A stretch of 64,000 nucleotides of DNA from Pseudobutyrivibrio sp. YE44. Lineage in GTDB: Bacteria; Bacillota; Clostridia; Lachnospirales; Lachnospiraceae. Where the stretch lies: the NCBI RefSeq assembly GCF_900104335.1, contig NZ_FMXT01000001.1:1-64000 (forward strand), written 5' to 3'. Below, piece by piece: positions 39,115 through 41,458 of the stretch. A model generated the notes under the pieces. The model saw nothing but the letters and a program-made list of their open reading frames with translations. It did not search any database and was not told the origin of the DNA. The position numbers were made by a program, and so were the translations under genes. Numbering within the stretch: the stretch's first letter is position 1; every line of letters starts with the position of its first letter.

Positions 39115-39138
39115 TTCGTTTTTACGAATACGACTTTT

Positions 39139-39174
39139 TAGGGGTCCGGTCCAATTGGACCGAACCCCTTTTTG
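39139..39174 (+). terminator. Terminator between gapA and pgk
   Basis: GGGGTCCGGTCC / GGACCGAACCCC, an interrupted GC-rich stem with an AATT loop region, followed by TTTTTG. It ends only 22 bases before the pgk ATG, so it may set the gapA:pgk ratio. Confidence 0.75.
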
Positions 39175-39195
39175 TATTTAAGGAGGAATAAAAAA

Positions 39196-40419
39196 ATGGC
39201 ATTAAACAAGAAGACAGTTGATGATATCAACGTAAAGGGCCGTCGCGTACTTGTTCGTTGCGATTTCAACGTACCACTTAAGGCTGGTGAAATCACAGAT
39301 GATACACGTATCAAGGCAGCTCTTCCTACAATTAACAAGCTTATCGCTGATGGTGGAAAGGTTATCCTTTGCTCACATCTTGGTAAGGTAAAGAATGGTC
39401 CTAACGAGGGCGAGTCACTTGCTCCAGTTGCAAAGCGTCTTTCAGAGAAGCTTGGCAAGGAAGTTACATTTGTTTCTGATTACAATGTAACAGGTGAGGC
39501 TGCTACAAAGGCAGTTGAGGCTATGAAGGAAGGAGACGTAGTTCTTCTTCAGAATACTCGTTTCCGTGGCGAGGAAGAGACAAAGAACGGTGAGGCATTC
39601 TCTAAGGAACTTGCTGATCTTGCTGATGATTATGTATGCGACGCTTTCGGTTCATCACACAGAGCTCACGCTTCTGTAGCTGGTGTTACAAAGTTCATCA
39701 CAGCTAAGGGTGGTTCTAACGTAGTTGGATACCTTATGCAGAAGGAAATCGACTTCCTTGGCAACGCTGTTGAGACTCCAGTACGTCCATTCGTAGCAAT
39801 TCTCGGTGGTGCAAAGGTAGCTGATAAGCTTAACGTTATCAACAACCTTCTTGAGAAGTGTGACACACTTATCATCGGTGGTGGTATGTCATACACATTC
39901 CAGAAGGCTATGGGATATGAAATCGGTACATCACTTTGTGATGAGACAAAGCTTGATTACTGTAAGGAAATGCTTGAGAAGGCTAAGAGCATGGGTAAGG
40001 AGATTCTCCTTCCAGTTGATGCTGTTACAATCGCTGAGTTCCCAGATCCAATCGATGCTCCTGTTGAGACAGTAGTATACGATAAGGAGAACATGCCAGC
40101 TGATAGAATGGGTTGCGATATCGGACCTAAGACAGTTGAAATCTTCTCAGAGAAGGTTAAGACAGCTAAGACAGTTCTTTGGAACGGACCAATGGGTCTT
40201 TTCGAGAACCCAGCACTTGCTGTAGGTACAGAGTCTGTAGCTAAGGCTCTTGCTGAGACAGATGCTACAACAATCATCGGTGGTGGTGATTCAGCAGCAG
40301 CTGTTAACCAGATGGGATTTGCTGACAAGATGAGCCACATCTCTACAGGTGGTGGTGCATCACTTGAGTTCTTGGAAGGAAAAGAACTTCCAGGTGTTTA
40401 TGCTGCTGACGATAAGTAA
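39196..40419 (+). CDS. pgk: Phosphoglycerate kinase
   Basis: A 407-residue kinase of lower glycolysis, making ATP from 1,3-bisphosphoglycerate. [23 protein letters not shown] and [12 protein letters not shown] make the N-terminal substrate site. The nucleotide site shows [12 protein letters not shown] and [13 protein letters not shown]. It ends [30 protein letters not shown] sets the ATG; a TTG earlier overlaps the site. Highly expressed codon use. Confidence 0.97.
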
Positions 40420-40448
40420 AATTCGTCTTTTTCAAAAATTTCTGCGTT

Positions 40449-40491
40449 AATTAGTATTCGCTGTACGTCTGTGTACAGCTTCATACTAATT
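40449..40491 (+). repeat. Strong hairpin after pgk
   Basis: AATTAGTAT (40449-40457) pairs with ATACTAATT (40483-40491), and inside it GCTGTAC (40460-40466) pairs with GTACAGC (40473-40479). No T-run follows directly, so it may protect or end the pgk transcript rather than be a standard terminator. Confidence 0.6.
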
Positions 40492-40543
40492 GCCTTGCAA
40501 TTTTAGAAAAATACTAGAATTTTTAAAATAATACTTAAAAGTA

Positions 40544-40694
40544 GCCTATGCCCAAGAGAATAAAACATACTCGTATCAGACCTTGATGAGCCGTCCCTAC
40601 TTAGATGGCACGAAGTGGCATCTTATGTAGGGCAACGAGCGAATAAGAGCGCAAGCGTGTCTGAGAGAGTGTGTGTTATTCTGAGGGAATAGGC
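40544..40694 (+). ncRNA. Large closed structured RNA in tpiA leader (unrecognised)
   Basis: The 5' arm, GCCTAT (40544-40549), CCC (40551-40553), AGAATAAAACATACTC (40557-40572) and TCAGA (40576-40580), pairs in order with TCTGA (40660-40664), GAGTGTGTGTTATTCT (40667-40682, one A-G mismatch), GGG (40685-40687) and ATAGGC (40689-40694). The domain tip is a second helix: CCCTAC (40595-40600) / GTAGGG (40627-40632), enclosing AGATG / CATCT. Unpaired stretches lie on both sides between them. It ends six bases before the AAAGGG ribosome-binding site of tpiA. No known riboswitch consensus was recognised; the rod with central bubble recalls 6S-type RNA. Confidence 0.6.
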
Positions 40695-40711
40695 GAGAGA
40701 AAGGGTTAATT

Positions 40712-41458
40712 ATGGCAAGAAGAAGAATTATTGCCGGCAACTGGAAGATGAACATTACACCTTCTGAGGCTGTAAAGCTTGTTGCTGAGCTTAAGGATTT
40801 AGTAAAGAATGATGATGTAGACGTAGTTTACTGCGTACCTGCAATCGATATTGTTCCTGTAGTAGAGGCTGTTAAGGGCACAAACGTAAACGTTGGTGCT
40901 GAGAACTTCTACATCGAGGATAAGGGCGCTTTCACAGGCGAGATTTCAGCTCCTATGCTTGTAGACGCTGGTGTTAAGTACGTTATCATGGGACACTCTG
41001 AGAGAAGAGATATCTTTGGTGAGGATGATATCCTTATCAATGCAAAGGTTAAGAAGGCATTTGCTGCTGGTCTTACACCAATCCTTTGCTGTGGTGAGTC
41101 ACTTGCACTTCGCAAGGCTGGCACATACAAGGAGTGGATCGAGAGACAGATTACTTGGGATCTTACAGGTGTTACAGCTGACCAGGTTAAGAACCTTGTT
41201 ATCGCTTACGAGCCAATCTGGGCTATCGGAACAGGTGAGACAGCTACAGCTGATCAGGCTGAAGAGGTTTGTGCATTCATCCGTGAGCTTATTGCTAAGC
41301 TTTATGATGGTGCTACAGCAGAGGCTGTTCGTATTCAGTACGGCGGATCTATGAATGCTGGTAACGCTGCAGAGCTTCTCAGCAAGCCAAACATCGATGG
41401 TGGTCTTATCGGTGGTGCTTCACTTAAGCCAGACTTCGGCAAGATTGTAAATGCTTAA
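40712..41458 (+). CDS. tpiA: Triosephosphate isomerase
   Basis: A 248-residue TIM-barrel enzyme interconverting dihydroxyacetone phosphate and glyceraldehyde 3-phosphate. GNWKMN (K13), GHSERR (catalytic His about 96), [14 protein letters not shown] (catalytic Glu about 168 and the flexible loop) and [16 protein letters not shown] are all intact. Unlike gapA and pgk it has a long folded leader, so it may be regulated separately. A terminator follows. Confidence 0.97.

Follow-up and report, generated by a model that had tools for sequence, protein, structure and literature searches.

A MITE-borne structured RNA that appears to have been domesticated in operons of Pseudobutyrivibrio

The window, a stretch of 64,000 nucleotides from contig NZ_FMXT01000001.1 of Pseudobutyrivibrio sp. 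YE44, carries pgk as the upstream cistron (ORF, 39196..40419) and tpiA as the downstream cistron (ORF, 40712..41458), and across nearly the whole genus tpiA orthologues share 94-100% identity. These genes and the parts of the two structured elements described below lie on the forward strand. The sequence of the intercistronic gap (40420..40711) contains two structured elements, and the ribosome-binding site of tpiA, AAAGGG at 40700..40705, lies directly 3' of the main one, as the first-pass annotation had placed it. The minimum free energy of 40420-40711 was -99.1 kcal/mol versus -64.9 +/- 4.7 for dinucleotide shuffles (z = -7.24), and 0 of 200 shuffles folded as well, which bears out the earlier statement that the pairing is far beyond chance. 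In this fold the tpiA ribosome-binding site is paired with a U-rich stretch at about 40426-40433 that is not retained in all relatives. No intrinsic terminator (a G+C-rich hairpin followed by a U run) was found in 40380-40760. Inspection by eye showed a strong hairpin that resembles a terminator, with a T run, between the gap gene and pgk (39135-39175).

The main element is a three-way junction spanning 40540..40699, from the basal motif AGUAGCC to GGCGAGAG, as delimited by the fold and by the alignment and consensus fold of 12 orthologues. Its long helix (40543-40694), with a branched domain inside, is formed by a 5' arm (40543..40581) that is sequence-variable between copies and pairs with 40659-40694, and by the 3' arm (40659..40694), which ends just 5' of the ribosome-binding site and is supported by the fold, the pairing of the arms and the orthologue consensus. 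The inner part joins this long outer stem to branch P2 (40582..40647), composed of an invariant internal loop, ACUUA/CUUA(U)GUA, and a variable apical stem, and to branch P3 (40649..40656), a small GC-GCAA-GC hairpin with a GNRA tetraloop that is near-invariant in 158 distinct copies. A nested helix enclosing a second hairpin had been described here; the coordinates of helix and hairpin were correct to within a base or two and the long helix stands, but the interior is a three-way junction, with the GNRA hairpin at 40649-40656, and not one enclosed hairpin. Compensatory changes were found in 22 of the 51 pairs across the pgk-tpiA gaps of 12 orthologues, the kind of check that the first-pass annotation had called for. 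Rfam 15, 6S and riboswitches included, gave zero matches at or above the gathering score across the whole window, and in E-value mode only chance-level matches over the gap, 6S not among them, so that no existing Rfam model covers the domain and the impression that it resembles no known riboswitch held.

The separate strong hairpin reported at 40449-40491 is likewise real, being the tip of a second structured element, element B (40423..40520, about 98 nt), in which 16 of 30 pairs carry compensatory changes in 12 sequences. Because BLAST of element B against the window's genome found only itself, it was searched by a covariance model (R3), which gives one or two matches per genome in 18 of the 29 Pseudobutyrivibrio genomes. 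Nearly all matches lie around gap-pgk-tpiA, most of them in the pgk-tpiA gap; where there is a second match, it mostly lies about 1.5 kb upstream of that gap, a distance that would put it roughly between gap and pgk. In one genome (G005) element B makes up nearly the whole pgk-tpiA gap. Judged by these sequence searches, element B looks specific to the glycolytic operon, which the main element is not, and of the two it is the better candidate for a glycolysis-specific regulatory RNA.

The occupancy of the pgk-tpiA gap differs within the genus, the main element being present there in 13 genomes, while in five relatives the gap is only 14-15 nt, ribosome-binding site included; since the element is missing at this site in closely related species, it is not essential there. 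Other hairpin-rich inserts, unlike either element of the window, were observed in the same gap in G012 and G021, G004, and G011 and G024 (loci L103, L110, L115, L116 and L114), and this gap would thus seem to be a hot spot for insertion.

When the inner ~85 nt were searched at the DNA level against the genome of the window, 11 further similar sites appeared, and a covariance model trained on 11 copies confirmed 12 copies of a ~95-nt three-way-junction core, which in the window occupies 40572..40665, scores 107 bits with model R1 and is supported by covariation. The inner cores of the genomic copies are roughly 80-90% identical, whereas most outer stems bear no sequence relation to one another, yet every copy keeps its stem paired. 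The other copies lie in rhamnose/polysaccharide, fatty-acid, dehydratase/activator and kdgK/uxaC operons. One core copy of this genome (L009:17519-17684) carries an insert of ~85 nt with its own hairpins 5' of P3, and similar sequence occurs in L063 and L071.

Model R1 matched 25 of 29 Pseudobutyrivibrio genomes, 2 of 8 genomes of other Lachnospiraceae genera and 0 of 24 genomes from other families, while a second model of the family, R2, matched 114 of 397 sampled Lachnospiraceae genomes; in a class-wide sample of 391 genomes there were 10 with matches, all ten of them Lachnospiraceae. Copy number ranges from 0 to 15 between close species and from 14 to 68 in seven other genomes. The count of 68 belongs to MAG JAMPHU01 (L142 and other contigs), labelled Candidatus Gastranaerophilales, which probably represents a Lachnospiraceae bin with a wrong label or mixed content; failing that, it would point to a striking transfer. 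No ORF of at least 80 aa lies within the element, and a literature search for the repeat found no description. Phage or viral spread was considered and rejected, with no exact pattern match in viral contigs. The repeat is an undescribed structured RNA, dispersed in Lachnospiraceae and without an Rfam match.

These dispersed copies lead to the rejection of both a tpiA-specific riboswitch and a 6S-like RNA. A cis-regulatory leader or riboswitch dedicated to tpiA or to glycolysis would agree with the position just 5' of the tpiA ribosome-binding site and with the presence of the element at pgk-tpiA in the 13 genomes; however, the same core stands before 33 different gene groups, matches no Rfam riboswitch and has no terminator-like partner structure, so that this explanation is largely refuted and now seems highly improbable. 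Of the new regulatory leader proposed by the first-pass annotation, the conserved structured RNA outside Rfam is retained, and the role specific to tpiA or to a glycolytic metabolite is given up on account of the 33 following-gene groups. Its other proposal, a processed 6S-like RNA, finds no support in the Rfam searches or in the multi-copy intercistronic placement.

Evidence for a selected structure was obtained from an alignment of the 158 distinct copies, fitted to the model, in which 18 column pairs covaried at E<0.05 under a phylogeny-preserving null, as computed by an R-scape-like script, not R-scape (G-test with average-product correction versus 100 simulated alignments, with parsimony changes scattered along the tree). 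Twelve of the 18 pairs fall in the 27-pair consensus model, the remaining ones being an extension of the outer stem (6-93, 7-92) or neighbours of consensus pairs. Outer arms paired at -31.2 +/- 6.9 kcal/mol with their own partner versus -12.8 +/- 4.1 with the partner of another copy, and own arms beat the 5th percentile of swapped arms in 97%. Single mismatches inside the outer stems were asymmetric (G.U 46 versus A.C 9; A.G/G.A 44 versus C.U/U.C 7), which indicates that it matters which strand is folded, an asymmetry that by itself does not discriminate between RNA and folded single-stranded DNA. The structure of the folded strand is under selection. The cores of orthologues do not stand out clearly as more conserved than tpiA 4-fold sites, in a comparison affected by constrained tpiA codon usage and by changes of core subtype from species to species.

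A mobile form of the element was observed in other genera, where conserved ends lie outward of the stem. Six near-identical copies in Butyribacter intestini delimit a ~213-bp element, TAGGCGTTTGCGAAACT...AGTTTCGCAATTACCTA, whose core is the same as that of the Pseudobutyrivibrio repeat, and the Butyribacter copies show target duplications of 10-14 bp, such as TTTTATAAATCAAT, TGAAATACTTTA and TATCACATATCT. Other lineages exhibit an excess of direct repeats, up to 14 nt, at about 55 nt on each side of the core; the same test in Pseudobutyrivibrio gave observed values equal to the null, with no target duplications, and the mobile origin in this genus is therefore argued from core homology. The inverted-repeat ends TAGGCGTTTGCGAAAC...GTTTCGCAATTACCTA bound both the 213-bp elements and a 1.75-kb IS in Butyribacter, the ends of the IS and of the RNA element being identical over 16 bp, and the end sequence occurs 116 times in the Butyribacter intestini genome versus 6 times for the reversed control. 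The same ends also bound elements of 50-90 bp without the core. The transposase of the IS, which matches NCBIfam IS1182 (below cut-off) and Pfam DUF772, is split in Butyribacter and open over 501 aa in another genome, and IS homologues with the same or nearly the same ends are found in Pseudobutyrivibrio G003 and in G452. At E<=1e-10 the partner transposase was not detected in 16 of the 19 genomes searched, several of them with many copies, so that the IS partner is established for three genomes only. Shared inverted-repeat ends, target duplications and a non-coding, multi-copy nature were all found in the copies of other lineages; the shared IS ends are absent from the window's copy, and target duplications from its genus. 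Copies in other genera show no orientation preference. The element of these genera is a MITE carrying a conserved RNA, with ends shared with an IS1182-like IS.

Such anatomy, with the IS partner and the lack of orientation preference, would suit a MITE that is selfish only, in which the structure serves transposition or persistence (e.g., as folded single-stranded DNA) with no gain to the host and the Pseudobutyrivibrio copies are old insertions tolerated where they are least harmful. The mismatch asymmetry fits it as well, since G.T and A.G are also the better-tolerated mismatches in folded DNA. On the other hand, the transposase is of the IS1182-type DDE kind, which is not known to need folded single strands, and in Pseudobutyrivibrio the outer stems diverge yet stay paired, without duplications.

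The placement in Pseudobutyrivibrio also speaks against it. Most copies of this genus lie in sense orientation between co-directional genes and occupy the space as far as the ribosome-binding site. Of 116 copies, 93 are sense between two co-directional genes and 17 are antisense; of the 33 groups of homologous following genes, 26 have sense copies only, 4 have antisense copies only and 3 have both orientations. The end of the core is separated from the start codon by a median of 48 nt (IQR 45-52), and the following genes include tpiA, rfb/rhamnose, fatty-acid, pflA, purD and dehydratase-activator genes. Many copies share basal motifs, 5' UUUAGAUGAGC and 3' GCGGACUA(G)GG running into the ribosome-binding site, and the pair was found by text search in 49 of the 116 copies. 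At L060, L063, L069, L070 and L071, in several species, an antisense and a sense copy lie head to head with about 65 nt between them, upstream of a gene resembling pflA. Given the strong sense bias and the tight start-codon spacing, a role restricted to transposition or persistence is rather unlikely in our estimate.

The invariant loops amid variable stems, and the same operons carrying the element across species (tpiA, rfb, fab, pflA), would also agree with a regulon, in which a putative protein or ligand recognises the invariant core and many operons of central metabolism and surface polysaccharides are coordinated through it, be it by antitermination, polarity suppression or decay control. 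The swing in copy number between close species and the antisense copies weigh against such a regulon, which is improbable. The fuller version, according to which a transposon spread an aptamer-like core through Lachnospiraceae and Pseudobutyrivibrio made of it a genome-wide regulon with one trans factor (protein or ligand), is similarly doubtful; if a regulon were real, it would co-regulate the downstream cistrons in operons for glycolysis, fermentation, fatty acids, purines and surface polysaccharides.

The explanation we consider somewhat probable, from the sequence comparisons above, is that a transposon-borne structured RNA has been domesticated and now acts, as a structure of the intercistronic mRNA, on the cistron that follows. 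Placed in this genus almost always just upstream of the next operon gene, the element probably helps set the expression of that gene. The Pseudobutyrivibrio element would have lost mobility and would work in cis as a stable, co-transcribed intercistronic structure, its most likely role being to shield the processed 5' end of the following cistron or to fix the presentation of its start site, and tpiA and the other following genes would thereby be expressed partly independently of the upstream gene; a trans factor may recognise the invariant loops. Counted against this domestication are the copies of other genera without orientation bias, the loss of duplications in Pseudobutyrivibrio, the empty pgk-tpiA sites and the rate of the core relative to 4-fold sites.

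More than a quarter of the genomes sampled from this family, which is dominant in gut and rumen, carry the element, at up to tens of copies, and it provides a clear case of a mobile element with its internal fold, and not just its ends, under selection. A comparison of genera with and without mobile forms allows a direct test of the passage from transposon to operon regulatory element. A caution also follows, as intergenic structured RNAs taken for gene-specific leaders may be dispersed repeats.

Among known systems, ERIC, NEMIS/Correia and YPAL are bacterial MITEs with long stem-loops that are proposed to change mRNA stability or cleavage (PMC2229807), and pneumococcal BOX, RUP and SPRITE are dispersed repeats with predicted RNA structure and a proposed effect on co-transcribed genes (PMC3049150); ERIC, Correia and BOX are precedents for effects of MITE RNA on mRNA (PMC2229807, PMC3049150). 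The present element resembles ERIC, NEMIS/Correia and YPAL in being small, dispersed, intergenic and co-transcribed, with inverted repeats and target duplications, but differs from them in lineage, ends and IS partner, in a multibranched ~95-nt core conserved across genera with tree-tested covariation, and in its mostly sense placement, in one genus, with fixed spacing to the start codon. Like BOX, RUP and SPRITE it is a Firmicute dispersed repeat with predicted RNA structure, and it is set apart by architecture from BOX, which is modular (A, B and C boxes), whereas here one invariant core sits in a variable stem. The mobile RNA element has the same ends as its IS1182-like partner IS, but unlike IS1182-family insertion sequences it encodes no protein and carries an RNA core.
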